Shown here one piece after another: positions 12,977 to 40,169 of a DNA stretch of 41,749 nt. The notes beneath the pieces were generated by a model. That model did no database searches, was not told the origin of the DNA, and saw nothing but the letters and a program-made list of their open reading frames with translations. Origin of the DNA: Deltaproteobacteria bacterium (lineage in GTDB: Bacteria > Desulfobacterota > Desulfobacteria > Desulfobacterales > Desulfatibacillaceae); the NCBI GenBank assembly GCA_016235345.1, contig JACRLG010000018.1, positions 1 through 41,749 on the forward strand, written 5' to 3'. Numbering within the stretch: the stretch's first letter is position 1; the number at the start of each line of letters is the position of its first letter. Position numbers and translations under genes: made by a program.

Positions 12977-13033
12977 AAAGCAGGATCGCTTTGTAAGCCT
13001 CTGTTTTCACAAACGTTACGGAGTGAAACGAAA

Positions 13034-14860: not shown

Positions 14861-14909
14861 AGCCAGCGCGTTGCAGATCGCGGGCAGGCCGGACAGGGGC
14901 GTTTTCCGC

Positions 14910-16991: not shown

Positions 16992-17034
16992 GGGCCGTTG
17001 TCTCTCAATGGTTAGGAATTCAGCGGGAGTTTTC

Positions 17035-18372: not shown

Positions 18373-18481
18373 ACGGTATTGAACCGGTTCTTACATACGC
18401 ATCAATAATTCATTCACAGGCTCCCATGCAGTCGGCACGCTGCGGGAAGCCTCCATAAAAACCGGCCAGGGCGGAGGGCGG

Positions 18482-20242
18482 ATGCGCATTTCCGGATTTT
18501 TAAAAACATGTGTGGCGGTTGCCGCGCTTTTTTTCGCAATGGCCCTTCCCGCAAACGCGAAGCTGGGGCCGATGGCGCTTCCCATGGAAGCGAGGGTGCT
18601 TTACGACAACTCCGGCAGCATGTACCCCGGTTACCAGCCGGGAGCCCAAGAAGGCCGGGGCCAGGCCCGCATGTTTCACCAGTACCCGCAGTTTCAGGAA
18701 TTCCTCAACGGGCTGGTGCGCTCCCAGGCGGACAACGGGGCGTCTTCGGTATCGTTCTGGGCCTTCACCGAACTTATAAGGACCATCGTGGCCGCAGAAG
18801 CGCCCATAGGCTCTTTCGACGCTTCAAGCGACCTTTCGGCCATACCCGCAGTTTCGGGGCAGAGAACCTTCCTCACCGAAAACCTGGAAGCATTCACAAG
18901 GGACTTCGAGGGGCTTCTGTGGCTCGTGACCGACAATATTGTGGACACCCGGCCCGGCACCGCAGACAACAGGGACGTCCGGGGCTTTTTCCAGTCCCTG
19001 AACAACAATCCGGCCTTCAAATCCGTCCACGTGTTCAAGTATCCGTTCATAGCCGACGGGGCCAGCTCGGCGCTTTCCATCTACTGCATCCTGGTCTGCC
19101 ACAAGGATTTTTCCGAAAAGGAGAGGGAGGAGGACCTTGCTCCCTTTGACGAGCGGATCGGAAAAAGCCTTTCGGTTTTTCCCCGGGGATCGAGCTACTT
19201 GAAGCTGAAGGATTTAAGCGTCGGCATGGTTAAGCTCAAAACCGACGCAGTGAAGGTCAACGTGACAAAAATCCCCGACGGGTTTTTCGGCGAGAACAGA
19301 AAGGTGAGCGTAGATCTTACGGGAATCATAGAGAGCCGTCTCACCCAGCACCGCATCATCCAGGGTGTCTGCTCGGTGGCGGTGGTGGAGGATTTCGTTC
19401 CGGTCAAAACCTCGGCCAGGGTGAAAATAAGGCCCATAGGGAGCGGGAATTTCTCCACACAGCCCTCCGTCATGCCCCTAAGCGAGATGGAGCCGCGCGG
19501 AACCCAGCCCATAAAGGTGAACGTAAGCTCGGTCCGGCCCGTGAAAATCGGGACCGTGGGCTTTTTCGGCTGGCTCAAGTCCGCCTTCGGCCTGAGGGCC
19601 TGCTACAGCGGCAAGGTCGAGATAAGGCTCGACGACGTGAGGGTGAGGCTTTCCGATGAAAGGCTCTCCGGCATCTGGGGCATAGAGCACGCGGGCGAGG
19701 TTTTCGATTTCGACCGGGAACAGGAGATCACCAACATAAACCCCGGTTACACCTACGTGGATTTCTGCCTTGAAACCGGAAGCGGCAAGGGGCTTTTTCT
19801 CATCGCCCTTCTCATCCTGTTTCTGATCGTCGGTTTTTTCGCGGCCCGCTCCGTTATGGGCGGCAAAAGGGCCGTGTTCATAATCCGAAAGCCCGACGGA
19901 GACCAGATGGTGAGCCTGGGGGCCATAGGTTCCGCGCCGGTGGATTACCGGGGAAGGGCCATCGGAAGGGTGTCGCGGAATCCGAAAAGCGGCGTGGTCT
20001 ATAAGGCCAACAGCACGGTATCCTCCATCAGGGAAAGCGACGATTCCTGGCTCGTGACGCCCAACGACGCCACCGGGGAGTTTCTCCTTCGCATAGAGCG
20101 CGACTGGGGCGAAGGGGAGGGCGGAGACGACGACGCCACCATAATCAGGCCCACGGGCGGGCCTCGGCCCCCCAAAAGAAGGGGCGGCGGACCCGGCCCG
20201 GATTCCGGCGGTGGCCCCCCTTCGGTGCCGCTTCCGTTTTGA
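18482..20242 (+). CDS. Exported membrane-anchored vWA-domain protein
   Basis: 586 residues with GGAGG before the ATG. A signal peptide (residues 1-26, ending PANA) precedes a von Willebrand A domain: the metal-site motif DNSGSM (about 42) and the later VTDN (about 150) are both in place, so Mg-dependent ligand binding is plausible. A beta-rich region follows to about 430, a membrane helix (about 437-458, LFLIALLILFLIVGFFAARS) and a cytoplasmic tail. The tail contains a small beta-rich part and ends in an acidic DDDATIIRPT segment and a Gly/Pro-rich disordered stretch. The topology puts the vWA domain in the periplasm and the tail with the cytoplasmic Hsp70 and tubulin-like proteins. Ligand unknown. 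Confidence 0.85.
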   Translation: MRISGFLKTCVAVAALFFAMALPANAKLGPMALPMEARVLYDNSGSMYPGYQPGAQEGRGQARMFHQYPQFQEFLNGLVRSQADNGASSVSFWAFTELIRTIVAAEAPIGSFDASSDLSAIPAVSGQRTFLTENLEAFTRDFEGLLWLVTDNIVDTRPGTADNRDVRGFFQSLNNNPAFKSVHVFKYPFIADGASSALSIYCILVCHKDFSEKEREEDLAPFDERIGKSLSVFPRGSSYLKLKDLSVGMVKLKTDAVKVNVTKIPDGFFGENRKVSVDLTGIIESRLTQHRIIQGVCSVAVVEDFVPVKTSARVKIRPIGSGNFSTQPSVMPLSEMEPRGTQPIKVNVSSVRPVKIGTVGFFGWLKSAFGLRACYSGKVEIRLDDVRVRLSDERLSGIWGIEHAGEVFDFDREQEITNINPGYTYVDFCLETGSGKGLFLIALLILFLIVGFFAARSVMGGKRAVFIIRKPDGDQMVSLGAIGSAPVDYRGRAIGRVSRNPKSGVVYKANSTVSSIRESDDSWLVTPNDATGEFLLRIERDWGEGEGGDDDATIIRPTGGPRPPKRRGGGPGPDSGGGPPSVPLPF

Positions 20243-20352
20243 GGTTTCCCTGTAAGGCCGTTTTTTCGTCCGTGGCGGCGCGGAAAGCGATGCGGACGTA
20301 TGGTTTTGATGGTTTCGACCAAATATTACGACTGGTTACAAGGAGATCGGTT

Positions 20353-20832
20353 ATGCGGATTTTCACCCTGAGCATGGTTTTTCTGGCCCTTGTTTGCGGG
20401 CTATCGGCCGGATTTACGATGATGGCTCCTTTCGGCGAGGGCTCATTATGCGGAATTTCCGCAGCCGTGGCAGATCAGGCCGTCGTGGCCCCCGCAGAGC
20501 CCCAGGCAGCCGGGGCAAGCCTTGCGGCCCCCAAAAACTGGGTGTTCAGATGGGGCATTTTCCTGGCGGTCCTGGCGGCCATCTGGTTCCTTTTTTACAC
20601 GATCGTATATCCCTACATTGTTCAGTATTACGCCTTCGATTACGCGGACAGCCTTTTCTGGACCATGTCCGTGCTCTATTCCCTGGGATGGATTTCCTTC
20701 AGCCTTTACGTGGTTTTCGGGGTCTGGGAGGTCTGGCCCTGGGCCCGGTGGGTGTCGCTCTTTCTCTCCGGCCTGTGGCTCATCTGGTTCCTCGCCGTGA
20801 TTTTCAGATCGGACGTCTACCACAAGTATTAG
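20353..20832 (+). CDS. Small multi-pass membrane protein
   Basis: 159 residues from ATG 20353, chosen because AAGGAG lies seven bases upstream; the frame is open further up but has no ribosome site there. Residues 1-21 look like a signal peptide or first membrane helix, followed by an Ala/Pro-rich linker. Hydrophobic helices lie at about 67-90, 101-123 and 131-151, rich in tryptophan and tyrosine. The protein ends SDVYHKY. No family recognised. It sits between the vWA gene and the tubulin-like gene and is probably a membrane subunit of the same system. The last base of its stop codon is the first base of a palindromic element. Confidence 0.75.
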   Translation: MRIFTLSMVFLALVCGLSAGFTMMAPFGEGSLCGISAAVADQAVVAPAEPQAAGASLAAPKNWVFRWGIFLAVLAAIWFLFYTIVYPYIVQYYAFDYADSLFWTMSVLYSLGWISFSLYVVFGVWEVWPWARWVSLFLSGLWLIWFLAVIFRSDVYHKY

Positions 20833-20994
20833 GGGCTGTTTCCAAAAAAACTTTTGCAAACGGTAGCGCCTTCATCCCCGCCGACTTTATTGCGCTTCTT
20901 GCGGAATACGTTAAGTATGCCGCAAGGAGACGCGCCTTGTCGGCGGGGCGAAATCGCAACCTTAAGTGCGACAAATTTTTTTGGAAACAGCCCC
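20832..20994. repeat. 163-bp palindromic element before tubulin-like gene
   Basis: Perfect 19-bp terminal inverted repeats (ggggctgtttccaaaaaaa at 20832-20850 and its complement at 20976-20994) enclose a second perfect pair (ccccgccgac at 20876-20885 and its complement at 20939-20948) and a smaller central palindrome around cttgcgg/ccgcaag. The element begins on the last base of a stop codon. It has no coding frame. It looks like a MITE- or REP-type element and, if transcribed, would fold into a long hairpin between two genes of the cluster. Confidence 0.85.
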
Positions 20995-21110
20995 TAAAAA
21001 CCCGGCCAGCTTGCCGACCATTGAACCGGGCAGGCCTTTTGCTTTTTGATGATCGATTTTTTTTGATGATCAATTTTCGATAAAGTTGCGGACATCAAGG
21101 AGATCCGTCC

Positions 21111-24100
21111 ATGGCAATGAGACTTTTACGGGGTGATCAGCCGCCGACGCAGCAGGATTACGTACAGCTTGGAAAAACCCTCCTGATCGGCCTGGGGGGC
21201 ACGGGCAAGGAGGTGCTTTTAAGGTTCCGGCGGCTGGTGGTGGAAAAGTTCGGCAGCCTGGACGCCCTTCCATGCATCCAATATATCTGCATAGATACGG
21301 ACAACACAGAGGACGCCCGCAAGGAATACGACCGGACCATCCTGGACGATCCCCTTTACAGGAAGATTAAGTTCAACAACGTGGAGAGGGTCGATCTGGC
21401 CCTTCCGGGCGGAATCGGCAATTACATCAAAAACATCAACAACTATCCCCATATAAAGACCTGGCTCAACACCCAGGGCAACCTGGCCGACCTGGGCGAC
21501 CTTGGCAAGGGCGCGGGACAGGTGCGCATGGCCTCCCGCCTCGCCTTCTACCACCATTTCGACACCATCGTGGGGGCGCTCCAGAAGGCCGAGGGCGCGC
21601 TGGCCGATCCCAACGTGGGAAAGACCCTGGAAGGCCAGGGCCTTGGGGAGGATTACAACCCGAACCTTAAGGACGCCTACATAATATGCTCCTTAGGCGG
21701 CGGCACCGGGGCGGGCGTCTTTCTGGACACGGCCTATCTCGTAGCGCAGATGTATTCCGACTACCACCGGACCGGGATGCTTTTCCTGCCCTCCTTCTTC
21801 ACCGGCTATTCGGGAAGCAAGAGGATAATGGCCAACGGCTACGCGGCCTTGAAGGAGCTCAACCACTACTCCTTCGCCAACAGGTTCATCCTCCCCACGA
21901 GGCAGAACCCCGCCAACATGGGGCCTCCCCCCTTCAACGAAACCTACCTTCTGGAAAGCCAGAACGAGGTGGGCGAAGGGGTGGGAACGGCGGGCAAGGA
22001 ATACGCCATGTACCAGATGGTGGCGGAAATCCTCGCACAGATTTTCTCCCAGGGGGCTTTTTCCGGCAAGCAGCGGGCCATAAGGGTCAATTTGCAGAAT
22101 TTCGTCAACGACGTTTTTCTGCACACCGTGGCTGGCTCCGACGGCTCCCAGGTGGCCGTGGGCGAGGAGGAGAGCTACTCCACGCGCTTCTGCTCCTTCG
22201 GCATGTCCTCCATCAGCTTTCCCACCGACAGGCTGCACTGGGCCGCGTCCTGCCGCATGGCCCAGGATATCCTGGACATCTGGCAGAAAGAGCAGCACGG
22301 CGATATTTTGAAGGTCCTTTTCACCGATTTTTTAAGCGAAGCGCCCGTCGTCTTCGCCCAGGGGACCTACACCAGGCCGGACACAAGGGAGAGGAAGGTC
22401 TGGAACCAGCTGAACGACGAGCTTCTGATGTACGAGAGGAGCAACGCCGAGCGCTTCCCCGCCTACGTATGGCGCGAGTGCCTCTCCCTTCGCTCGAAGC
22501 TGGACAGCGCCCCCTACGGGCAGAAATCCGGCATCCTTAACGCGGCCCTCAGGGACTGGGACCTGAAGCTGGCGGGGGAGGGCGAGGCTGACCGGAAAAA
22601 ATGGGGCCAGGACCTAAGGAGGCTTGAGGACAATCTTTCCATTTACGCCGACAAGGTGAAGGAAGGCATAAGGGCCAGGGCCCTTGCGCTTCAGGATGAC
22701 AACGAAAAGGGCGTGGCCTACGTTCTGGACATCTTAAGGGAGCTTAAAAGCCTTCTCAAAAATCCCAACTACGGCTACCTTCCCTATTACGTCGCAGAGG
22801 AGCCCAGGCAGGACGCCAACATACAGCAGGCGAACTCAAGGCTTTCCGCCCTTATCGACGATCTGGGCCGAGTGGAAAAGGACATCTTCCACAAAAAGGA
22901 AAAGACCGCAGTTTGCCTTGGTAAGCTGGTGACCCGCGACAGCAGGGACCCCGGGCATCTCTACAACTACGTAATGGCGCGGGTGATGCGGCAGGCGGCC
23001 AAGCGCGGCCAGCGCCTGTGCGAGGAGATAGACAGGTTCCTCGGAGTCGACGCCATAGTGGAGAAGGACTCGCCCAATTACGGCCTTATCGCCGAGTACC
23101 GCACTGTTTTCGCCGACCTGGACGAACTGAAGGCCAACTTGAAGAAAAGGGAGGATTATTTCATTTCGAGCCGGGAATACGGCAACCACCGCGACCTGTA
23201 CCGTGAGGGTGACGTGGACGCCTGGTACGACAGGTGGATGGGGGAGGGGGAGGCCAGGAAGGCCAGGCTGGTTTCAACCGGGGCCTCCATGCTGGACGCG
23301 GTGTTTCACGCGGAATCCGTGCCCCATGCCTTAAATTACATAAGGCAGACCTCCCTCGAAACCATTGAGGATCAGGTTACTGGCTTCTGCCACGCCATAT
23401 TCAAAAGCCACCCGGTCCAGCCCTCGGCCTTGGACATGTTTTTCGACGACAAGAGGGTCTCGGACGCCGAGCGCAAGTCCATAATCCAGACCATGTACCG
23501 AAGGGCCCGGCCCTGGCTCAGGCAGTCGGACAAGATCGGCCACGCCCTGTTTTCCGTGGGCAACGATCAGAAGCCCTGCCTCATCGGCCTAGATACCGAA
23601 TCCTCGCCCGTCAGAACCGAGCAGTTCAGGAAACTGCTTTCCGGTGTGGTGCATCCCGGCGACCCGCCCCACGCCTTCATCAACATAGGCACCCCCAAGA
23701 AGGGGGCCATAGTCTTTTACAACGAGCTTGCGGGCGTCACCGCCTTTTATCCCACAAGCGTCACCCAGACGCTCGGCATGAAGGAGTGCTACGAGGCCTT
23801 CTGGAAAAACCCGGACGAGCCGGGATTCGGCAGAAGCGCTGATCTTCACACGGACAAGAACCGCTTCAAGTTCTCGGACATCATTCCCAAGACCGACGAG
23901 GAAGTGCGCAAGAACATCGAGGGCGTGCGCGATTTCATGAGGGCGTGGCTTTTGGGGATACTCTCGGTGACGGACGGGGGAGACGAGAAGAATCACAGCC
24001 ATTACAACCAGTTCGGCTACATCATCATGAACGGCCCCTGGGAGAAGAAGATTTCCTTAGGCTCCGAAAATCATTCCCTGGACATCATTTACGGAGACAG

Positions 24101-25112
24101 GCGCCCCGCCCACGAGACCCACAGGCAGGTGCTTCTGGGGCAGGTGGAGGAGGCCCTGGGAATGGTCCAGACAAAGGGATGGCTTCCAGCCTACCTTCTG
24201 CTCATCGACTTTTTCAAGACCCATTTTTATCCGCCCAAACAGGTTGACTGCGGGATCGAGGGCCAGCCTCCGCTCACCAGGTATTCCCTGCAATATCTGG
24301 TTCTTGAAAACGAGGAAAACCGCGTTTTGGACGAGTTCACCCCGAGCCGGGAGGAAAAGGAGCGCCTGAGCCGGGAATTTCTGGCGCTTAGGGGAAAGCC
24401 CACGGCCCAGGCCCTCACCTTCGAGGAGTACGAGGAGGCGCTTCGGCCCTTCACCAGGCCGGCGGGCAAGTTCCTGGCCCACATCAGGACCTCGGCGGGC
24501 GTGGGCAAAATGTATCGCTCCATGCCAGCCCTTGACCTTAAGGCGGAAGAGCCCGATGCCGCCTGGCCCTCAGCGCCCAAGGCAGAGCCGGTTCAGGCCG
24601 CAACGAGCGCCGTTGCACAAAATCCCGAAATGGCACATGCCCCGGAAAAAGCGGCCTCACCGGCTCCCTCCGCCGACGTGGCGACAAGGCCCTGCCCCTC
24701 ATGCGGAAAACCGATACCGGCCAGTTCCATCTTTTGCAGGTTCGAGAAGAAGATAGTGGCGGAGCATGTGAAATGCATGGCCTGCGGAGCGGAGACCCCG
24801 AACGATGCCCGCGAATGCGCAAAATGCGGTGGAAACGCCTGGGTGGAGGACGTGGAATGCCCCATGTGCAAGAACATGGGCGCGGGCTTTCCATGCCATG
24901 TCTGCGGTTACGAGCCTGAAGAAGAAGCAGCAAACGTGGGTAGCGTTGACTCCCGGCCCGCAGACGCCCCCGGCGCGGACGCTTCCGACGCCCCGACCAG
25001 CGCGGGGGGGACGGATGCCCTTCAGGAAGACCCGAAGGACAGGTGCCCGGTGTGCCAGAATCCGCTTTCGCCCGGCCAGGCCGTCTGCCCTGCCTGCGGA
25101 ACCGTGATCTGA
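21111..25112 (+). CDS. Tubulin/FtsZ-like GTPase with C-terminal zinc ribbons
   Basis: 1333 residues, about three times FtsZ (roughly 380) or tubulin (roughly 450). AAGGAG precedes the ATG. The N-terminus has a nucleotide-binding start LLIGLGGTGKEVLLRFRRLV (about 24-43) and strand YICIDTDN. Near residue 195 is the tubulin signature SLGGGTGAGVF, the phosphate-binding loop of tubulins. This fits the bacterial tubulin-like family listed in Pfam as Tubulin_2. I could not identify the catalytic T7 loop with confidence. About 900 residues of unassigned, mostly helical and mixed sequence follow. The last 140 residues carry cysteine pairs CPSC, CMAC/CAKC, CPMC/CHVC and CPVC/CPAC, about four zinc ribbons separated by an acidic Ala/Asp-rich linker. 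No membrane helix; probably a cytoplasmic filament former or GTP switch. Confidence 0.85.
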   Translation: MAMRLLRGDQPPTQQDYVQLGKTLLIGLGGTGKEVLLRFRRLVVEKFGSLDALPCIQYICIDTDNTEDARKEYDRTILDDPLYRKIKFNNVERVDLALPGGIGNYIKNINNYPHIKTWLNTQGNLADLGDLGKGAGQVRMASRLAFYHHFDTIVGALQKAEGALADPNVGKTLEGQGLGEDYNPNLKDAYIICSLGGGTGAGVFLDTAYLVAQMYSDYHRTGMLFLPSFFTGYSGSKRIMANGYAALKELNHYSFANRFILPTRQNPANMGPPPFNETYLLESQNEVGEGVGTAGKEYAMYQMVAEILAQIFSQGAFSGKQRAIRVNLQNFVNDVFLHTVAGSDGSQVAVGEEESYSTRFCSFGMSSISFPTDRLHWAASCRMAQDILDIWQKEQHGDILKVLFTDFLSEAPVVFAQGTYTRPDTRERKVWNQLNDELLMYERSNAERFPAYVWRECLSLRSKLDSAPYGQKSGILNAALRDWDLKLAGEGEADRKKWGQDLRRLEDNLSIYADKVKEGIRARALALQDDNEKGVAYVLDILRELKSLLKNPNYGYLPYYVAEEPRQDANIQQANSRLSALIDDLGRVEKDIFHKKEKTAVCLGKLVTRDSRDPGHLYNYVMARVMRQAAKRGQRLCEEIDRFLGVDAIVEKDSPNYGLIAEYRTVFADLDELKANLKKREDYFISSREYGNHRDLYREGDVDAWYDRWMGEGEARKARLVSTGASMLDAVFHAESVPHALNYIRQTSLETIEDQVTGFCHAIFKSHPVQPSALDMFFDDKRVSDAERKSIIQTMYRRARPWLRQSDKIGHALFSVGNDQKPCLIGLDTESSPVRTEQFRKLLSGVVHPGDPPHAFINIGTPKKGAIVFYNELAGVTAFYPTSVTQTLGMKECYEAFWKNPDEPGFGRSADLHTDKNRFKFSDIIPKTDEEVRKNIEGVRDFMRAWLLGILSVTDGGDEKNHSHYNQFGYIIMNGPWEKKISLGSENHSLDIIYGDRRPAHETHRQVLLGQVEEALGMVQTKGWLPAYLLLIDFFKTHFYPPKQVDCGIEGQPPLTRYSLQYLVLENEENRVLDEFTPSREEKERLSREFLALRGKPTAQALTFEEYEEALRPFTRPAGKFLAHIRTSAGVGKMYRSMPALDLKAEEPDAAWPSAPKAEPVQAATSAVAQNPEMAHAPEKAASPAPSADVATRPCPSCGKPIPASSIFCRFEKKIVAEHVKCMACGAETPNDARECAKCGGNAWVEDVECPMCKNMGAGFPCHVCGYEPEEEAANVGSVDSRPADAPGADASDAPTSAGGTDALQEDPKDRCPVCQNPLSPGQAVCPACGTVI

Positions 25113-25214
25113 AGCCGGTTCGCGGGAAGGCTCGCGGAAGCCTGATTGATCCAATGTTTCTGTAATGTTTTTTGAGGGGCCGCCCGGCCCGTCCAAAAAA
25201 GTGGAGACGCCATC

Positions 25215-26024
25215 ATGCAAGCCCAAAGGCCCACCGGAAAGGTGAAACTGTTCCTTTTCCTGCTGTTTTTTATGGGCATCGCCTTAAACCTTTTGGTTCC
25301 GGCCCACGAAAAATGGGGAATCCTGGGTTTCCTGCCCTTTTTTTCGGATGAGGCACGGCCGAAAAACCTGGAAAAACATCCCTTTGTGGAATCGGCGAAA
25401 AACGGCGTGGTCCTTATCGAAACCTTCTCCACCCAGGCCGGGGTCCAGGGCGGCAGCGGAACCGGCTTCATCGTGCGGCCCGGCTACGTCGCCACCAACG
25501 CCCACGTGGCCATGTGCTTAAAGGACGGCAGGGACTTCGTAAACGCCGAAAAAATTTACGTATATTCAAAGGGCGAAAGGCAGGAGGCCGAAATAGAGGG
25601 CCTTGGCGCGCCCAACGGGTCCAGCCAGGACATGGCGGTCCTGAAAATTCGGGACACCTCTATGGCCCCGCTCAAACTGGCCGATTCGTCCAAATACCAG
25701 GGCGTCAGCGGCGAGCAGGTTCTGACAATCGGCTTTCCCTTTGTGGATGATCTCACGGAAAAGGACAAGCCCATGGTGTCATCCGCAGGAAGCCTCAACT
25801 ACAACGGCCCTGCGGGCCTTTTCTATCCTTCGGGCACCAATTTCAACCACGGGAACAGCGGCGGGCCGGTCTTTCTGACTTCCACCGGCCTTGTGGTGGG
25901 GCTCGTGGTGTCCTACAGGCCGGTATCCAGGGATGGTGTGGAGATACGCTCCGTTGACTGCGTGATCCCCATCAACACCTACAAGGCCTTTTTCAGGGAC
26001 AAGACCGGTCAGCAGTTGGGCTGA
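25215..26024 (+). CDS. Membrane-anchored trypsin-like serine protease
   Basis: 269 residues. A membrane helix or uncleaved signal (about 11-29, LFLFLLFFMGIALNLLV) precedes a trypsin-fold domain of HtrA style: GGSGTGFIV, TNAHVA with catalytic His97, QDMAVLKI with Asp139, and HGNSGGPVF with Ser215. All three catalytic residues are present, so it should be active. No PDZ domain follows, unlike DegP/DegS. The topology suggests a periplasmic protease tethered to the inner membrane. The stop codon is 16 bp before the next gene, so the two are surely co-transcribed. Confidence 0.88.
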   Translation: MQAQRPTGKVKLFLFLLFFMGIALNLLVPAHEKWGILGFLPFFSDEARPKNLEKHPFVESAKNGVVLIETFSTQAGVQGGSGTGFIVRPGYVATNAHVAMCLKDGRDFVNAEKIYVYSKGERQEAEIEGLGAPNGSSQDMAVLKIRDTSMAPLKLADSSKYQGVSGEQVLTIGFPFVDDLTEKDKPMVSSAGSLNYNGPAGLFYPSGTNFNHGNSGGPVFLTSTGLVVGLVVSYRPVSRDGVEIRSVDCVIPINTYKAFFRDKTGQQLG

Positions 26025-26040
26025 GAGCCAGGGGGTAAAG

Positions 26041-27186
26041 ATGGGTCGCAACAAGGGCGTGTTTTATTTCGTGATGTTTCTTGCGCTTATGGGTGTGGGG
26101 TTGAACGCGCTTCCCCTTTTTCTGACGCCGCCGGGAAGCGTGCTTGTTACGCTTAAAGACGCGGCCTTTTCCACCGACCTTGGGGGAAGGGAGATGGCCC
26201 TTTTTTCCGCCGACGATAAAATTTCCGCAACGGGCGTCATAAACCTTGAAAACGGAAAATTCAGGTGCCTTCTCGCCAACATCAGAGCGGGCGAGCAGGC
26301 CCTGATCGTAAAGGTCGCCGGTTTTGAAAAAAGCGCTCCGCAGAAGATCGAGGTGCCGTCCTTGGGCCTTGCGGAACTTTCCGTTTCGCTAACCCCCGAC
26401 TTTGGAAGGCTTCTGGTGAAACCCGTGGACGCAAGGGTCCAGGGCCGGGTGGTGGACGGCGCGGCCATAAGGCTGAAGGATAGGGACGTCACGTTCACGG
26501 CCCTGGAAAACGGTTTCAGGCAGGTTGATATCGGAGCCGGAAATTACCTCGTGAACGTCACGGCCCAGGGTTACTGCGACCAGGAAAGGCAGGCCGTGGT
26601 GAAAAAGGGCAGGGTGACCGAGCTTGTCGCGCCGCTTTCCCCGGAACTCGACCCAAGCCGGGAAAGAATGAGGATCATGCTGGACTGGGGGCCCGATCCC
26701 AGGGACCTGGACTCCCATCTTCTCATGCAGCGGCATTCCGAGATACAGGGAAAGGGCTGGGTTTACTTCGCCAACAAGAAGGTGAGCTTAAAGAACGGAA
26801 AACTCCTGGCCATGCTGGACGTTGACAACACCAACTCCGAAGGGGTCGAAACCATAACGGTTTTCACGCCTCTGGCCTATACCACCCATTACGCCGTGCA
26901 TCTTTTCGCGGGCCAGGGAAGCATTGCCGCTTCGGACGCCACCGTGGAGGTGGTCTCGGCAGGTTGCAGAAAGGAGACCTTCCGGCCTCCCGCAGGCTGC
27001 TCAGGCAGGGTGTGGCACGTTTTCGACCTCACCCCGGACATGAGGATAATTCCCAAGAATGTCTGCATGGAGTCCTTTCCCAAGGACTGGCAGATAAGGG
27101 CCACCAAAAAGGACGAGGATGACGCCGGGAGCGCCTCCCCGGCACCTGCAGCCGCCGCGCCCGCCACCGAAGGCCGCAGGCCGTAA
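26041..27186 (+). CDS. Membrane-anchored beta-sandwich protein with YfaP/DUF2135-like domain
   Basis: 381 residues; GGGGG lies upstream of the ATG. An N-terminal hydrophobic helix (about 8-28) anchors an exported chain. Residues about 32-200 are beta-rich, with phrases such as GNYLVNVTAQGY typical of carboxypeptidase-regulatory or PEGA-like sandwich units. Residues about 210-340 follow the YfaP/DUF2135 pattern: LDWGPDPRDLDSHLL, then GWVYFANKK, MLDVDNTNSEGVETITVF and HYAVHLFAG. The tail is Ala/Pro-rich. Its tight coupling to the protease gene suggests a substrate, adaptor or ligand-binding partner in the periplasm. The exact role is unknown. Confidence 0.75.
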   Translation: MGRNKGVFYFVMFLALMGVGLNALPLFLTPPGSVLVTLKDAAFSTDLGGREMALFSADDKISATGVINLENGKFRCLLANIRAGEQALIVKVAGFEKSAPQKIEVPSLGLAELSVSLTPDFGRLLVKPVDARVQGRVVDGAAIRLKDRDVTFTALENGFRQVDIGAGNYLVNVTAQGYCDQERQAVVKKGRVTELVAPLSPELDPSRERMRIMLDWGPDPRDLDSHLLMQRHSEIQGKGWVYFANKKVSLKNGKLLAMLDVDNTNSEGVETITVFTPLAYTTHYAVHLFAGQGSIAASDATVEVVSAGCRKETFRPPAGCSGRVWHVFDLTPDMRIIPKNVCMESFPKDWQIRATKKDEDDAGSASPAPAAAAPATEGRRP

Positions 27187-28497: not shown

Positions 28498-28938
28498 TCA
28501 GGAGACTACCCACACGGCCTGTGGCCCGGATTCCCTCATCACCCGCGCGGACACGCTTCCGAACATGAATTCCTCCTTTCTGCTCACTCCCCTTCTGCCC
28601 ACCACCACAGTAAGGTAGCCGCCCTCGTGCTTTTCCTTCAAAATGACGTCCGCCGCCGTCTGGGGCGCTGTGAAAACGGCAACCTTAGTCCTGATTCTTT
28701 CCTTGGGAAGCCCGGCGTCGGCCAAAAGGCCGGCCAGCCCCGAAACCAGGGCCTGTCCCTTTTGCCGCCTTTCTTCAAGGATCAGGGAGCGGGCCTTGGG
28801 GTCCCGCTCAGCGTCCTCTTCCGGGCTTCTTATGGCGTTTAGGATGGTGACTGCGATTTCGGGATGGTTTCCCACCATGCGGGCCGCATACATGACCGCC
28901 CTTTCGGCGTTTTCGGAATGATCCACTGCTATCAGCAT
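28498..28938 (-). CDS. Universal stress protein (UspA family)
   Basis: 146 residues, the normal single-domain length. It begins LIAVDHSENAERAVMYAARM, the usual first strand and helix with the nucleotide-contacting aspartate. It ends with VVGRRGVSRKEEFMFGSVSARVM, a form of the GxxG-x9-G(S/T) ATP-binding motif, then a final strand AVWVVS. The family binds ATP or other small ligands and supports survival under stress; which stress is not shown here. It is convergent with the central cluster and reads the same way as the AhpD-like gene 100 bp upstream. Confidence 0.9.
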   Translation of the reverse strand: MLIAVDHSENAERAVMYAARMVGNHPEIAVTILNAIRSPEEDAERDPKARSLILEERRQKGQALVSGLAGLLADAGLPKERIRTKVAVFTAPQTAADVILKEKHEGGYLTVVVGRRGVSRKEEFMFGSVSARVMRESGPQAVWVVS

Positions 28939-29038: not shown

Positions 29039-29608
29039 TCATGAAACAGAAACCGATTTCAGGGCTTTTTCGGCCAGGGCGGATATCTTTTTCAACCTGC
29101 CCGGAAGGCGTTTCAAAAGCCCTGTGCGGGAAAAATCCCTTCCGGGTTCCAGGGCGTCCCGAAAAGGCAGGCCGAAAAAAAGGTTGGCGGAATAATTGGC
29201 CAGGCGCATCATCCGCAGAATTTTTTTTATGTCGGCCCGCTCCTTTTTGGAATAGGCCGTCTCGTATGCGAAAATCTGGGGGCCCTTGGGTTCGCGTCCC
29301 CTAAGGGCTGCGAATTTCCGGGCATAGTTCAAGGCCAGCCACTCCTTTTCGGAAAAATCTTGTTTGTCAAGGCTCACCAGCCTTGGGATCTCGTCTTTTT
29401 GAAGACCCTGGGACACGCCCAGGGCTGAGTGGAAATTCACTCAGAGGGCGCAATTGTTGGTGGAGGAAAAGGCCAGGATCAGTTTTTCCCGGAAAATCGG
29501 GTCCATGCGGCGAAATGTCATCAAAAAGGTGGGGCCGCGAAAAAAATCGAACAGGATTTTTGCGAATTCGGCTGGAGATCTGTAGGTGCGCATCGCTATA
29601 TCGGACAT
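29039..29608 (-). CDS. AhpD/carboxymuconolactone-decarboxylase-like protein, candidate selenoprotein
   Basis: 189 residues if the in-frame TGA at 29443-29441 (codon 56) is read as selenocysteine; as standard code it would be two pieces. Start ATG 29608 has AGAGGA seven bases upstream. Before the TGA: REKLILAFSSTNNCAL; after it: VNFHSALGVSQGL. The AhpD/CMD redox motif is CxxCxxxH, and the TGA takes exactly the place of the second cysteine (C-A-L-U-V-N-F-H). The sequence on both sides keeps family character, with KEWLALNYARKFA and a long helical C-terminus, so there is no sign of decay. AhpD-type proteins use the CxxC pair for thiol peroxidase chemistry; selenium would increase reactivity. A hairpin just downstream fits a SECIS. 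A sequencing error or nonsense mutation is the alternative. Confidence 0.75.
29406..29443 (-). promoter_or_regulatory. Candidate bacterial SECIS element
   Basis: On the minus strand, after the TGA, CCCTGGG-CGTGT-CCCAGGG (29424-29406) forms a perfect 7-bp stem with a 5-base loop. The loop starts 24 bases after the TGA (23 in between) and has G as its second base. This agrees with the published general description of bacterial SECIS elements (mini-hairpin, loop some 16-37 bases from UGA, a G among the first two loop bases). A second 7-bp stem (29444-29438 with 29431-29425) includes the TGA itself. Confidence 0.65.
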
Positions 29609-29711
29609 GGGTGATCCTCTTGGGGTTGTTGAACGTAAATGAACGCTTGTTGCCAGTCTTGAAAGAATAGCCCAAGTCGGCCCTGCCGAAAAGGAAAAAT
29701 TTTTTGCAAAC

Positions 29712-30887: not shown

Positions 30888-32135
30888 ATGAAGTCGCGTT
30901 GCGCGTTGGGGGCCGCCATGCTGGCCCTCGCCCTGGCCCTTGTCGGTTGCGGAAAGTCCGGCGGGGAAAAACCGGAAGATCAGATTGCGGCCCGCCCGCC
31001 CGTGGCGGTGGAGGCGGTGGCGGTGAAAGCCTCCGATACCCTGGAAGGCATCGACATCGTAGGCTCGCTTGCGCCGAAGTACGACACCATCGTGAAAAGC
31101 GAGTACCAGGGCGTTGTGACGAAGGTGTTCGTGACCGAGTGGGTGAGGGTGAGAAAGGGCGATCTCCTTGCCGAGCTGGACACCAGGGAGGGGCGCGACC
31201 AGGTCGAGGCCGTCCGCGCCCAGGTGGGCAGCGCAAGCGCCCAGGAGGCCACCGCCCGCGCCCAGGTTTCGGCTGCAAAAGCCTCTCTGGTCCAGGCGGA
31301 AGCCGGGCTTTCCAGGGCCAGGCGTGAGCACGCGAGGCTTACGAATCTCAAGGACGCGGGGCTTGTGACCCAGCAGTCCCTTGACGACGCCAAAACGGCC
31401 CTGGAAGTGGCCGAAAGCCAGGTTGAGGCCGCCAGGGCCGGTGTCGAGTCCGCCCAGGCCCAGGTTTCTTCGGCGAAAAGCGGCGTGGTGGCGAACGAGA
31501 AATCCCTTGCCCACGCAGAAACCCGGCTTTCCAAGTTTCTCATAAAAAGCCCCATGGACGGGGTGGTGGCCTATCGCGGCGTGAGCCCCGGAGACCTTGT
31601 GGGTGACCCGGCCTCCCCCAAGGTGATGTTCCGGATAGTGGACGACTCCTTCCTGGAACTCACCGTGGCTGTTCCGTCAAGACACCTTGCTGAGCTTTCC
31701 AGGGGCCAGACCATAATGTTCACCGCAGACGCCTATCCCGGAAGGGAATTCACCGCCACGGTGCGCTTTGTGAACCCCACCGTCAGCGAGACCGACCGGG
31801 CGATAAAGGTGCAGGCCGACGTGGACAACAGGCAGGGCGTCCTGAAAGGCGGGCTCTTCGTGAAGGGCAGGATAGTCACCAGCCGGAAGACCGGGGTGCT
31901 CCTGGCTCCCAGAATCGCTTTTTCCTCTCTGGACCTCATCACGAAAAAGGGCGAGCTCCTTGTGGCTGAAAACGGAATCGCTAGGAAAAAGGAAGTTCTC
32001 GTGGGATCGGTTTACGGCGAAAACATGGAAATAGCCCAGGGGCTTTCTTCCGGCGTTCTGGTCATCACCCGTGGAGGCTACCGCGTGAAGGACGGCGACA
32101 AAGTGGCAGTTACGACCCAGCCGGGAGACAAATAA
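30888..32135 (+). CDS. RND efflux periplasmic adaptor (membrane fusion lipoprotein)
   Basis: 415 residues. A lipoprotein signal ends in LVGC with the lipid-carrying cysteine at residue 21. The MFP layout follows: a first lipoyl half (YQGVVTKVFVTEWVRVRKGDLLAELD), a long coiled-coil hairpin rich in Ala, Gln and Glu (about 98-205) and the second lipoyl half with IKSPMDGVVAYRGVSPGDLV. Beta-barrel and membrane-proximal parts complete it. It bridges the inner-membrane pump and the outer-membrane channel encoded by the next two genes. Its stop is three bases before the GTG of the pump gene. The exported compound cannot be read from sequence. Confidence 0.92.
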   Translation: MKSRCALGAAMLALALALVGCGKSGGEKPEDQIAARPPVAVEAVAVKASDTLEGIDIVGSLAPKYDTIVKSEYQGVVTKVFVTEWVRVRKGDLLAELDTREGRDQVEAVRAQVGSASAQEATARAQVSAAKASLVQAEAGLSRARREHARLTNLKDAGLVTQQSLDDAKTALEVAESQVEAARAGVESAQAQVSSAKSGVVANEKSLAHAETRLSKFLIKSPMDGVVAYRGVSPGDLVGDPASPKVMFRIVDDSFLELTVAVPSRHLAELSRGQTIMFTADAYPGREFTATVRFVNPTVSETDRAIKVQADVDNRQGVLKGGLFVKGRIVTSRKTGVLLAPRIAFSSLDLITKKGELLVAENGIARKKEVLVGSVYGENMEIAQGLSSGVLVITRGGYRVKDGDKVAVTTQPGDK

Positions 32136-32138
32136 ACC

Positions 32139-35100
32139 GTGCTTATTTCAGATGTCTCATTAAAAAGGCCGATTTTCGCCACAGTCATCATGCTGGCCCT
32201 GATGGTGCTGGGCATGTTTTCCTATCGCCGCCTTGCGGTGGACCAGTTTCCCAACGTGGAAATCCCGGTGGTTTCCATCATCACCAAGTATCCGGGGGCG
32301 TCTCCCGAAACGGTGGAAAGGGAGGTCACCAAGCGCATCGAGGAGGCGGTCAACCCCATAGCCGGGGTGAAGCACGTATCCTCCTCATCCCTGGAAAACG
32401 TTTCCATCATCTACGTGGAATTCAACCTGGAAACCAAGGTCAACGAGGTCATCCAGGACGCCCGCGCCAAGGTTTCCGCCATACGGGGCGAGCTTCCCGG
32501 CGACATCGAGGAGCCCATACTGGACAAGCTGGACTTCCAGGCCCTGCCCGTGGCCTCGCTTTCCGTCCAGTCCAAATCCATGAGCCCGGTGGCCCTTTCC
32601 ACCTTCGTGGAAAAAAAGATAAAGCCGCGCCTGGAAACCATATCAGGCGTGGGCAAGGTGAACCTCGTTGGACTTTCCAAGCGCGAGGTCAACGTAGTCA
32701 TTGACCGCACCCGGTTGGAATCCCTGGGAATGGGCCTTGACGAGGTCATCAGCGGCCTTCAGAGCGAAAACGTGAACGCGCCCCTAGGCTCACTCAAACG
32801 CGGAAACGCCGAGTTTCCCCTTCGCATATCCGGCAAGCCCGAAGACGTTGCCGGTTTCGAGAACATGGTGATCGCCTCCCGTTCGGGCCGGCCCGTCACC
32901 CTTGGGGAAATCGCCCGGATCGTCGACGGGATGGAGGAGCCCGACAGCCTTGCAATGGTGAACGGGGTTCCGGCCATCGGCATAGATATATTGAAGCAAT
33001 CGGGCTCCAACACCGTCGCTTTGGTGGACACCATAAAGAAGATCACCGAAAAGCTGGGCAAGGACCTTCCTGAGGGCGTGGAAGTGAAGCTCGTGCGGGA
33101 CGGCAGCCAGTTCATCCGGGACTCTGTTTCCGAAGTCGAGCACACAATGGTCCTGGGCGGCATTCTCACCGTCTTCATCGTGTTCTGCTTCCTGAGTTCA
33201 TGGCGCTCCACCATCATCACCGGCATCACCCTGCCCATTTCGGTCATAAGCTCGTTTTCCGTCATGTATTTCATGGGCATGACCTTAAACATCATGACGC
33301 TTATGGCATTATCGCTGGCAATAGGGCTTCTGATAGACGATGCCATTGTCGTGCGGGAAAACATCGTGCGGCATCTTGAACGCGGCAAGGACCACTTCAC
33401 GGCCAGCCGGGACGGCACGAACGAGATCGGCCTTGCCGTCATGGCCACCACCTTGAGCGTGGTGGCGGTTTTCGTGCCCGTGGCCTTCATGAAGGGCATA
33501 ATCGGCAAGTTTTTCTTCTCCTTCGGTATTACGGTGGCCTTCGCGGTGCTGGTGTCGCTTCTGGTCTCCTTCACCATGGACCCCATGCTTTCGTCCCGCT
33601 GGTTCGACCCGGACATCCACAGGAAGCCGGGAACCGGAAACCTCCTTTACCGGCTCCTGGATTACTTCAACGGGGCCTTTTTCAAGCTGGGCGAGTTCTA
33701 CAAGAAGGCCATCGGATGGGCCCTGTCCCACCGTGTGTTCATCATGTCGGCGGCCCTTGCCGCCTTTGTGGGGGGCATGTACCTTTTCGGGAATCTGCCC
33801 ACCTCTTTCAGGCCGGAACAGGACCAGGCCGAGTTTCAGCTTATTTTCACCACCGCGCCCTACGCGTCCCTGGCCGAGACCGAAAACCGGCTGGAGGCCG
33901 TGTTAAAGGGCCTGAAGGAATTCCCCGAAGTCACGGAAACCTTCGCCACCATAGGAGCAGGCGACCAGAGCACCGTGCGGGACGCCTCGGTTTACGTGAA
34001 ACTTACGCCCAAGAATGAACGCAAGCGCAGCCAGCTCGAACTCCAGGACGCAGTGCGCAGGAAAATGGCCACCATCGCGGGCATTGAAATCGATATCAAG
34101 GAAGTGGGGGACACAGACAGCAGAAAGCCCGTCATGGTGGGCATAAGGGGCGACAACCTGGAGCAGTTGAAGCTCCTGGCGGCCCAGCTTAAAAAGGAAA
34201 TGCTCACCATAAACGGCCTTGAGGACGTTTCCGCAACCCTTGAGCAGGAAACCCAGGAAGTGCGTTTCATCGTGGACCGCGAGCGGGCCAGGGCCACGGG
34301 CCTTTCCACCGCAGCCATCCTCCGCACGGTTTCGGCCCTGGTGGGCGGTTACGCGGTCACCACTTACGAGGACGAGGACGGCGACGCCGTTGACGTTCGC
34401 ATACGGCTTCCCGAAAACCAGAGGGAGGACCCCGCCCAGGTTGGCAGCCTCCTCATCACCGTGCCTCAGCAAAAGGGGGAGGTGGCACTTCTGCCCCTTT
34501 CCGAGTTCGTGAAGATCGAGCAGAAGCCCACTCCCTCCGAAATCACCCGCTGGGACCTTTCCCGACAGGTCTTTGTTTCCGCCGGGCTCGGCAAGGACAT
34601 TGCCCTTGGCACCGCAATGGAAAAAGTGAAGGAAAAGGTCAAGCTGCTCGATCTCCCGCCCGGTTACGGCATCATTTACACCGGCGAGGCCGAGGACATG
34701 GCGGAATCCTTCGGTTACATGTTCGAGTCCCTGCTTCTGGCCATCGTCTTCGTGTACCTGATTCTTGCGGCCCAGTTCGAGAGCTTCATCGATCCCTTCT
34801 CCATCATGTTCTCGCTTCCCCTTTCCATCGTTGGCATGGCGGGAATACTCACTCTCACCGGCGACACCCTTTCCATCATGAGCATGATCGGACTAATCAT
34901 GCTCATGGGGCTCGTGACCAAAAACGCCATCCTTCTCATCGACTTCGCCAAGCAGATACGAAGGCTGGAAGACCCGTGCAACCCGGCTGAGGGCGAGTGC
35001 GTGCGCGACGAAATAAGGCGCGTGCGCAAAAAGGCCCTTGTCATGGCGGGCGGAATAAGGCTTCGGCCCATTCTCATGACCACGCTGGCCATGATCTTCG

Positions 35101-35360
35101 GAATGCTGCCCCTGGCGCTCGGAATCGGGCCGGGAGCTGAAATGCGCGCCCCCATGGCCAGGGCCGTCATAGGCGGCCTCATAACATCCACCCTGCTTAC
35201 GCTTATTGTCGTGCCGGTGGTCTATACCCTTTTGGACGATCTGGTCATATTCTACCGCCGCCTGCGCCCGAAAATGAGCGTTGAGGAACAGGCGGAACAA
35301 CTGCACAAAAAAAGAGGGGAAAAGGTCGGGGCTCACGATTATCCAGAGGCCGGGGCCTGA
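32139..35360 (+). CDS. RND-family efflux pump permease
   Basis: 1073 residues, normal for the HAE1-type multidrug pumps. It starts at GTG 32139 with GGGAG about 12 bases upstream. The N-terminal helix ISDVSLKRPIFATVIMLALM and the porter domain start YPGASPETVEREVTKRIEEA are typical. TM4 keeps the proton-relay pair in LLIDDAIVVRENI, and TM10 keeps the lysine in LMGLVTKNAILLIDFAKQ. An extra acidic/cysteine loop (DPCNPAEGEC) follows TM10. The pump exports lipophilic compounds using the proton gradient; substrate unknown. The TGA overlaps the start of the TolC-like gene by one base. Confidence 0.95.
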   Translation: MLISDVSLKRPIFATVIMLALMVLGMFSYRRLAVDQFPNVEIPVVSIITKYPGASPETVEREVTKRIEEAVNPIAGVKHVSSSSLENVSIIYVEFNLETKVNEVIQDARAKVSAIRGELPGDIEEPILDKLDFQALPVASLSVQSKSMSPVALSTFVEKKIKPRLETISGVGKVNLVGLSKREVNVVIDRTRLESLGMGLDEVISGLQSENVNAPLGSLKRGNAEFPLRISGKPEDVAGFENMVIASRSGRPVTLGEIARIVDGMEEPDSLAMVNGVPAIGIDILKQSGSNTVALVDTIKKITEKLGKDLPEGVEVKLVRDGSQFIRDSVSEVEHTMVLGGILTVFIVFCFLSSWRSTIITGITLPISVISSFSVMYFMGMTLNIMTLMALSLAIGLLIDDAIVVRENIVRHLERGKDHFTASRDGTNEIGLAVMATTLSVVAVFVPVAFMKGIIGKFFFSFGITVAFAVLVSLLVSFTMDPMLSSRWFDPDIHRKPGTGNLLYRLLDYFNGAFFKLGEFYKKAIGWALSHRVFIMSAALAAFVGGMYLFGNLPTSFRPEQDQAEFQLIFTTAPYASLAETENRLEAVLKGLKEFPEVTETFATIGAGDQSTVRDASVYVKLTPKNERKRSQLELQDAVRRKMATIAGIEIDIKEVGDTDSRKPVMVGIRGDNLEQLKLLAAQLKKEMLTINGLEDVSATLEQETQEVRFIVDRERARATGLSTAAILRTVSALVGGYAVTTYEDEDGDAVDVRIRLPENQREDPAQVGSLLITVPQQKGEVALLPLSEFVKIEQKPTPSEITRWDLSRQVFVSAGLGKDIALGTAMEKVKEKVKLLDLPPGYGIIYTGEAEDMAESFGYMFESLLLAIVFVYLILAAQFESFIDPFSIMFSLPLSIVGMAGILTLTGDTLSIMSMIGLIMLMGLVTKNAILLIDFAKQIRRLEDPCNPAEGECVRDEIRRVRKKALVMAGGIRLRPILMTTLAMIFGMLPLALGIGPGAEMRAPMARAVIGGLITSTLLTLIVVPVVYTLLDDLVIFYRRLRPKMSVEEQAEQLHKKRGEKVGAHDYPEAGA

Positions 35361-36565
35361 TGAAACAAGCGAAACATGATCCGTTAACCCACGAAAAGCG
35401 TGCGAAAATGATATCGATAAAATTGATTCGCGCCCATGGGCTGCGCATGGCCTTGCCGCTGGCCCTGGTTTTTTGTCTTGCAGCACAGGCTTTGGCCGCA
35501 GACGCGGCGGACGGCCTTACCCTGGACGCGGCCTGGGAACTCGCTCTTTCCCATAACAAGGACGTTGCGGCGGCCAGGGAATACGCCAAAAAAGTTCGCG
35601 GCATCTACGTGGAGGCCCGCGCCACGGCTCTTCCCAAATTCACCTTGCAGGTCGGACACTACCGGGACAGGGACGAGAGCCAGAAGGCGGTGGGCGGCCC
35701 GTACATGCCCACCACCCACGCCACTTCAAGCGCCATTCTCTCTGTGGATCAGGTTCTCTTCACATGGGGCCAGGTTGGGGCGGCCATTCGCGGGGCCAAG
35801 GTGGGGCTCGCCACCGCAGATGACGAGCTTCGGCTCTATAGGCAGGCGGCTTTGCGGGACGTGGCCGAAGGCTTCTACGACGTGCTCCTGGTCCAGGAGC
35901 TTTTTTCCATTGCGAAGGAAAACCTCGCCCAGAAGGAACGCCACAAAGACGCCGCCGAAAAGAGGCTCCGGGCCGGGCTCGCCACGGACTACGACGTACT
36001 GGCCGCCAGGGTCGCAGTGGACAATGCCCGCCCGGATGTGATCCGCACCGAAAACGGAGCCGTCACCGCCCGCCAGCGCCTGGCCTTTCTACTTGGAGTT
36101 GACGATATCCCGTCAAGGATAGCTGGTTCCCTGGCAGGCTCCCTTGCGGGCCCGGTAACGGAATGCTCCATGACCTGCGACGACGCCTACAAAAAGGCCC
36201 TTTCCAACAGGCCGGAACTGGTCGGGCTTTCGCATCAGGCGGAAATGGCCAAGGAATACGTGACGGTGATATCTTCCGCAGACAAGCCAAGGGCGGCCTT
36301 GCCCAGGCCCGGCGGGACTACCTCGGTTAGGGAGGCGGCCCAGATAGTGGCCTCCCTGGAAGGCACCGTGTCCCAGGCCGAGCGGCTTTTTTCCATGGCC
36401 GAAAAGGGCTTCGACTACGGCGTGAAAACCAGGCTGGACGTCGAGGACGCGCTTCTGGGCCTCATGCAGGCCAAGGGCGGCCTTGCCCAGGCCCGGCGGG
36501 ACTACCTCGTTGCAAGGGTCAAATTCCTCTGGTCAATGGGCGTGTTGGGAGAGGAATCGAAATAG
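35360..36565 (+). CDS. TolC-like outer-membrane channel, apparently internally shortened
   Basis: 401 residues; the family is usually about 430-490. The ATG at 35360 overlaps the pump gene's stop; ATG 35408 would give a more usual signal peptide start (MISIKLIRAHGLRMALPLAL), cleaved near ALA. The first half follows TolC: GLTLDAAWELALSHNKDVAA, the barrel strands, then VLFTWGQVGAAIRGAKVGL and long helices. In the second half the chain passes from a helix (AEMAKEYVTVISSADKPR) through a short odd stretch (AALPRPGGTTS) straight to the last helices (VREAAQIVASLEG to VKFLWSMGVLG). The second set of barrel strands and the 'PLFDGG'-like turn are missing. The odd stretch is encoded by a 40-bp copy of sequence at 36470-36509, read in another frame. 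The channel may be non-functional, or the shortening may be an assembly artefact. Confidence 0.85.
   Translation: MKQAKHDPLTHEKRAKMISIKLIRAHGLRMALPLALVFCLAAQALAADAADGLTLDAAWELALSHNKDVAAAREYAKKVRGIYVEARATALPKFTLQVGHYRDRDESQKAVGGPYMPTTHATSSAILSVDQVLFTWGQVGAAIRGAKVGLATADDELRLYRQAALRDVAEGFYDVLLVQELFSIAKENLAQKERHKDAAEKRLRAGLATDYDVLAARVAVDNARPDVIRTENGAVTARQRLAFLLGVDDIPSRIAGSLAGSLAGPVTECSMTCDDAYKKALSNRPELVGLSHQAEMAKEYVTVISSADKPRAALPRPGGTTSVREAAQIVASLEGTVSQAERLFSMAEKGFDYGVKTRLDVEDALLGLMQAKGGLAQARRDYLVARVKFLWSMGVLGEESK
36286..36325 (+). repeat. 40-bp direct repeat inside TolC-like gene, left copy
   Basis: Identical to 36470-36509. Here it is read as KPRAALPRPGGTTS, out of the family's pattern, and sits where a barrel segment should be. 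Confidence 0.9.
36470..36509 (+). repeat. 40-bp direct repeat inside TolC-like gene, right copy
   Basis: Identical to 36286-36325. Here it is read as AKGGLAQARRDYL, which fits the normal TolC C-terminal helix, so this is probably the original copy. Confidence 0.9.
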
Positions 36566-40015: not shown

Positions 40016-40169
40016 GACTCAAGTCTCCTTGAAATGAATGTGTTTACGCCTTGATCAAAAAAAGTTGCAAGCACGGGGACTTCAAGTCATTCAAGCACCC
40101 TCCGCCGGATGGTTGTAACGAACCTGCCGGCGGCAATTACTCCATTAATGTCCATGACCATATTCCGTG

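Follow-up and report, generated by a model that had tools for sequence, protein, structure and literature searches.

Does the TGA that stands in frame inside an AhpD/CMD-like gene of this Desulfatibacillaceae genome end the protein, or is it read as selenocysteine (Sec)? The gene occupies positions 29039-29608 on the minus strand of the window, by which we mean the whole stretch of 41,749 nucleotides analysed here. Translated through the TGA, it runs from an ATG at 29608 to a TGA stop of its own at 29041-29039, giving 189 codons and a protein of 189 amino acids that includes U56. The start region, read directly from the letters (29606-29633, minus strand), contains a Shine-Dalgarno-like AAGAGG 7 nt before the ATG. 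The internal TGA is codon 56 (29441-29443, minus strand). As the first-pass annotation had proposed, it falls exactly at the second cysteine of an AhpD-type CxxC, so that with TGA read as U the CxxUxxxH motif becomes C53-A-L-U56-V-N-F-H60. The gene is present once in its own genome (search at E up to 0.1), and tblastn against plasmids and phages returned no match to it. In the window, ARAGORN found nothing, and a promoter and terminator scan gave about as many sites as shuffled sequence.

TGA is an ordinary stop in the window, because it terminates 11 of the 25 putative genes, and the AhpD-like gene is the sole one of the 25 with an internal stop. Within the window, these counts make it vanishingly improbable that this genome routinely reads TGA as an amino acid, through genetic code 4 (rejected on the same stops) or a suppressor tRNA, and nothing found there favours that reading. 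A cysteine lying no more than three residues from a TGA, in a frame open on both sides, occurs at 18 places in the window, the AhpD-like site included; the other 17 were judged, by eye only, to be shadow or antisense frames. The CxxU motif alone is weak evidence for selenocysteine. The site rises above chance because homology spans the TGA: a relative from the same genus (L022, in genome G003) is an uninterrupted ORF, 64% identical, with cysteine (TGC) at this position.

Homologues align on either side of the TGA, which supports the earlier proposal that read-through joins two fragments into one AhpD/CMD-like protein. Identity to L022 is 34/55 before the TGA and 64/96 after it (residues 57-152), third codon positions vary most on both sides, and dN/dS is 0.33 before and 0.19 after. 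Purifying selection acts on both sides of the TGA, and the value behind it implies that this stretch is translated in the same frame. Such selection is hard to square with a pseudogene or split gene, in which translation stops at the TGA and what lies behind it is either dead or translated anew from the adjacent GTG. That GTG, directly after the TGA, does open an ORF of 133 codons. However, no Shine-Dalgarno-like stretch was seen in the 26 bases before it, a break here would separate C53 from H60, and relatives conserve both sides of the TGA; we consider a split gene highly improbable.

TGA or a cysteine codon is the only choice found at this position. Seven of nine genomes of the bacterial family have a match, two with TGA (our genome, labelled G000, and G004) and five with Cys. 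A search of 389 genomes of the class (E up to 1e-12) yielded 20 matches, of which 12 have TGA in place of the second Cys and eight have Cys, and one of 395 genomes of the phylum (E up to 1e-10) yielded 16, three of them with TGA (G000, G048 and G009). Pooled, the three Desulfobacterota searches cover 33 distinct genomes, 14 with TGA at the exact position (our own included) and 19 with Cys. At the level of loci, the alignment of homologues that the first-pass annotation had recommended comprises 34 with the window's gene included, 15 with TGA and 19 with Cys, and no other residue occurs at the position.

Three of the TGA-bearing loci have features of their own. G549 has a second, shortened copy (L069) in addition to L058, with TGA at the same codon; it is probably a decaying duplicate. 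In L060 the motif histidine is replaced by arginine (CSLUGNAR), and a hairpin is still there at -8.3 kcal/mol. In G048 (L036:1483-2472), a single frame links the Sec AhpD-like domain to a following domain that resembles phospholipid methyltransferase (PEMT), and the product is possibly a fusion selenoprotein.

Behind the TGA of the window, on the minus strand at 29405-29425, we predict a bSECIS upper stem-loop, GCCCUGGG-CGUGU-CCCAGGGU, at -14.2 kcal/mol. It has 8 bp (one G-U) and a 5-nt loop, CGUGU, with G second, and lies 23 nt (TGA to loop) from the candidate codon. These values fall within the bSECIS constraints as given in PMC13188914, namely a loop of 3-9 nt with a G in its first two positions, a stem of 4-16 bp, a UGA-to-loop distance of 16-37 nt and an MFE of at most -7.5. 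Beside it, folding places a lower hairpin that contains the TGA itself (UGAGUG, a 6-nt loop, CACUCA; 29426-29443, minus strand), and the TGA plus 45 nt folds at -22.2 kcal/mol, a value that 38 of 1000 synonymous recodings also attain. An equally good or better stem-loop follows 0.18% of the 7,988 background codons in the window and none of its 116 Cys codons. Taken alone it is moderate evidence, because 78 of 1000 synonymous recodings match or beat it.

Comparison among relatives adds to this picture. In the same-genus Cys gene the hairpin is weak, at -3.0 kcal/mol. Across the 34 loci, -7.5 kcal/mol is reached by 11 of 15 Sec genes (L057, L058, L059 and L069 fall short) and 3 of 19 Cys genes (L037, L065 and L067), with a Fisher p of 0.0013 that is optimistic because the rows are related. 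In a gap-free alignment of 14 Sec rows, from which L069 was left out as a shortened near-copy of L058, a 7-bp helix, its register picked after the hairpins had been seen, shows pairing in 69.4% of cells, compared with 35.7-46.9% for six slid registers. All seven pairs show changes on both sides, and the covariation score of 0.579 exceeds that of all six slid registers and of shuffled alignments (0.264 ± 0.053; 0/500 as high). The same register in the 19 Cys rows is 41% paired, not above neighbouring registers, and GG stands at the loop start in 12/14 Sec rows compared with 6/19 Cys rows. A stem-loop near this place therefore shows compensatory changes in Sec genes and not, in that register, in Cys genes. 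The window forms three of the seven pairs of the shared helix and has its own stem in a shifted register. RNAalifold gave no consensus helix for the 14 Sec rows, which use slightly different registers. No Rfam family matched in the window at gathering score, and the lack of a match to SECIS_1 (RF00031) in our genome is uninformative, because none of 14 control genomes matches either.

The genome (4,011,554 bases in 36 contigs, 97.36% complete) encodes the decoding apparatus. The first-pass annotation had named selA, selB, selC and selD as the genes to look for, and all four are present: tRNA-Sec scores 74.9 bits (cut-off 47) with anticodon TCA (UCA), and selA, selB and selD reach 587.5, 360.6 and 342.8 bits. 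The selD locus (L018, G000:C7:113791-114720) carries one in-frame TGA, and SelD of this genome is likely a selenoprotein itself, as is known elsewhere. selA is above cut-off in 14/14 Sec genomes, ours included, and also in 18/19 Cys-bearing genomes, so that it does not separate the two groups; selB is above cut-off in all four of the 14 Sec genomes in which it was tested. G003, of the same genus and bearing the Cys form, has a 33-residue selA end and a below-cut-off selB match with a TAG; because this assembly is 83% complete in 550 contigs, loss of the Sec trait in G003 cannot be claimed.

These observations also bear on the reading that the TGA is a sequencing or assembly error for TGC or TGT in an ordinary Cys protein. 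The same-genus relative has TGC, one base away from TGA, as such an error would have it. Yet 13 further genomes have TGA at this very codon, which makes an error unlikely, and the Sec machinery in the genome, together with a bSECIS-type hairpin that is strong behind the window TGA and weak in the same-genus Cys gene, further argues against it; overall we regard an error as very unlikely. By the computational criteria used, this is a selenoprotein gene, and it is very probably one complete gene whose TGA is decoded as selenocysteine. Insertion of selenocysteine at codon 56 is predicted with near certainty. Homology and the RNA features suggest that the stem-loop at 29405-29425 would recruit SelB carrying Sec-tRNA(UCA), and that selenocysteine would then be put in at the UGA at 29443-29441.

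In a tree built from 33 rows, with L069 again left out, after masking of the Sec/Cys column, the window's gene groups with L022 (100/99), and the pair lies inside a 13-row clade (99/99) of eight Sec and five Cys rows. All five Cys rows belong to the window's family, and all six rows outside the family are Sec; Sec and Cys forms thus occur together inside the family, even inside one genus. By hand count on the tree topology, the family needs three changes: either Sec gave way to Cys three times, or it did so once and was regained twice, and the data do not decide between the two. All 33 rows need seven Sec/Cys changes. One reading that we entertain, at somewhat less than an even chance, is of an as yet unmodelled Desulfobacterales clade of AhpD-fold selenoproteins, in which Sec is ancestral, the SECIS is the clade's own with a GG loop start, the substrate is not a plain peroxide, and Sec-to-Cys exchange has repeatedly occurred within one family and genus. 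A literature search of main texts outside most subscription journals (including PMC8318568, PMC1242214 and PMC12013277) did not find the clade in print.

What kind of protein would be made? Against Pfam CMD (PF02627), the window protein scores 23 bits at a gathering cut-off of 23, both as printed. Seven of eight Sec relatives score 29.9-46.2 bits (L060 has no match), and the Cys forms L024 and L022 score 36.2 and 22.5 bits. For the AhpD core domain (TIGR00778, ahpD_dom) the window protein scores 25.1, below the cut-off of 27.8 that 8 of 11 Sec relatives scanned pass; TIGR00777, AhpD proper (cut-off 191.95), gives no match to it at E up to 1. Two families of AhpD-core (seleno)proteins, the GSU3128 family (NF041047) and the YciW-related (seleno)protein (NF053654), match clade members weakly. 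The window protein lies far below the curated NF053654 cut-off (19.2 of 310), also misses that of TIGR01926 (13.2 of 81.8), and has neither NF041047 nor NF041238 among its listed matches. Neither the window protein nor any of the 11 Sec members scanned among the other 13 (all but L059 and L063) passes an NCBIfam equivalog.

An AlphaFold model (mean pLDDT 86.9, pTM 0.78; poor after residue about 150) has an all-helical, AhpD-like fold, in which the neighbouring predicted helices 37-50 and 54-66 hold the relay Glu, Cys, Sec and His. Among solved structures it comes closest to proteins that are AhpD-like or putatively antioxidant, namely 7xw1, titled AhpD of P. aeruginosa (Z 15.5 over 131 residues, rmsd 4.2; Foldseek E 4.3e-4), 2gmy (Z 15.1) and PA0269 of Pseudomonas aeruginosa (2ijc, 2o4d; Z 14.8). 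PA0269 and 7xw1, which share this fold at Z 14.8-15.5, differ from the window protein in having Cys where it has Sec, at 18-20% identity. Helical proteins score high Z by chance and values below about 13 are not decisive, as with Mycobacterium tuberculosis AhpD (1knc, 1gu9; Z 10.4 over 130 residues for 1knc, 8% identity). The debrominase Bmp8 (Z 12.3, 137 residues) is also among the matches. The sequence profile also picks out proteins of the same kind as the top fold matches, 2ouw (9.8e-6), 2ijc (3.1e-5), 2o4d (4.2e-5) and 7xw1 (5e-5), with the CxxC and His aligned in the three profile alignments examined.

In M. tuberculosis AhpD, the second cysteine is the more reactive one, and it is this cysteine of the AhpD-type CxxC for which Sec56 would stand in. 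Glu41, Cys53, Sec56 and His60 are spaced by 12, 3 and 4, exactly as are E36, C48, C51 and H55 of PA0269, where the relay is described as Glu36, Cys48, Tyr50, Cys51 and His55 (PMC3141380); M. tuberculosis AhpD has the same spacing. Residue 55 of the window protein is Leu, in place of the relay Tyr of PA0269 and His of M. tuberculosis AhpD (PMC3141380). Gamma-carboxymuconolactone decarboxylases are described as having neither the CxxC motif nor the relay residues (PMC3141380), and the CxxUxxxH of the window protein sets it apart from such enzymes. Since Glu41, Cys53 and His60 occupy the positions they have in the AhpD proton relay, Sec56 would, as a selenolate, attack a peroxide or disulfide, an Se-S bond would form with Cys53 as the resolving residue, and a thiol reductant would reset the pair. 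By analogy, AhpD-type thiol/selenol redox chemistry is likely; that the protein acts physiologically on a peroxide or an organic peroxide is a tentative proposal.

The neighbouring genes suggest a stress-response setting. A universal stress protein (Usp) gene (28498-28938, minus strand; Pfam Usp 56.6 bits) follows the AhpD-like gene on the same strand after a gap of 100 bp and is possibly co-transcribed with it. A Usp gene also adjoins the same-genus Cys relative in L028 (L028:3751-4188) and lies upstream of the Sec relative of G004 in L030 (L030:1238-2158); in L029, L031, L032 and L033 the neighbouring genes scanned include no Usp gene. In L029 and L031 an MMPL gene follows the relative, with a YceI-like gene before it in L029, and in L032 and L033 an oxidoreductase gene lies beside it on the opposite strand. 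A conserved operon was rejected, since neighbours differ in this way among the family loci.

Elsewhere in the window, a co-directional run on the plus strand (8545-27186) encodes an Hsp70-like protein of 953 aa, a trypsin-like protease, an Ig-like protein of the HYDIN/VesB kind and a Tubulin_2 protein of 1333 aa that bears zinc ribbons, as well as a GrpE-like C-terminus that scores just below cut-off. The run looks like one multi-gene system. Consecutive genes for an HlyD-type adaptor, an AcrB-type transporter and an outer membrane efflux protein (30888-36565, plus strand) make up a tripartite efflux pump. Two adjacent genes at 38465-41663 (minus strand) carry HMGL-like and LeuA dimerisation domains of the isopropylmalate/citramalate synthase type.

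The alternative that survives best accepts the selenoprotein and denies that it is a peroxidase, taking it for an AhpD-fold Sec reductase of the thiol-disulfide, persulfide or dehalogenating type. The ranking of Bmp8 in the fold search points this way, as do the variation of neighbours between genera and the lack of a peroxiredoxin among the 25 window genes (no Pfam match to one, such as AhpC, in the other 24). The organism's group is anaerobic, which we also count in favour of such a reductase. On the other side, the relay Glu, Cys and His are kept, and the fold search is headed by AhpD-like or putative antioxidant proteins, although a fold match does not by itself settle a substrate. We think a non-peroxidase reductase possible, though less likely than not. 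For the gene as a whole, we consider it highly probable that it specifies one 189-residue AhpD-like selenoprotein of the CMD superfamily with the decoding and chemistry proposed above.

Sec-containing AhpD-like proteins had been noted by the first-pass annotation as known from other bacteria, and this is correct. Reports of CxxU AhpD-like and CMD selenoproteins date from 2005 (PMC1088965), with AhpD-like ones following in 2006 (PMC1794560) and CxxU forms again in 2008 (PMC2398784), and they appear in reviews of 2022 (PMC9312934) and 2026 (PMC13188914). The CMD domain-containing or CMD-like selenoprotein of PMC1088965 and Table 1 of PMC13188914 combines PF02627 with CxxU; the window protein shares the CxxU and scores right at the PF02627 cut-off. 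In the table the entry names a family, with MBW1767730.1 as representative, and the likeness is by that label. The new families of the survey among these two sources are reported to have SECIS-like stem-loops after the TGA. GOS AhpD-like 1 (COG2128) and AhpD-like 2 (pfam02627) of PMC2398784 are likewise AhpD-type with CxxU and Cys homologues; they differ in being metagenome sequences, and are likened to the window protein by description. Novelty is modest, because CxxU AhpD-like selenoproteins have already been reported: the window protein is a further member of a type already known.

A gene caller that stops at the TGA splits the gene, so that this protein and its relatives are probably misannotated. 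Sec and Cys forms in the clade match closely, with 64% identity in one genus, and lend themselves well to testing why selenocysteine is retained or lost in bacteria. If the clade is ancestrally Sec with repeated exchange to Cys, it would constitute a natural set of matched Sec and Cys enzymes.
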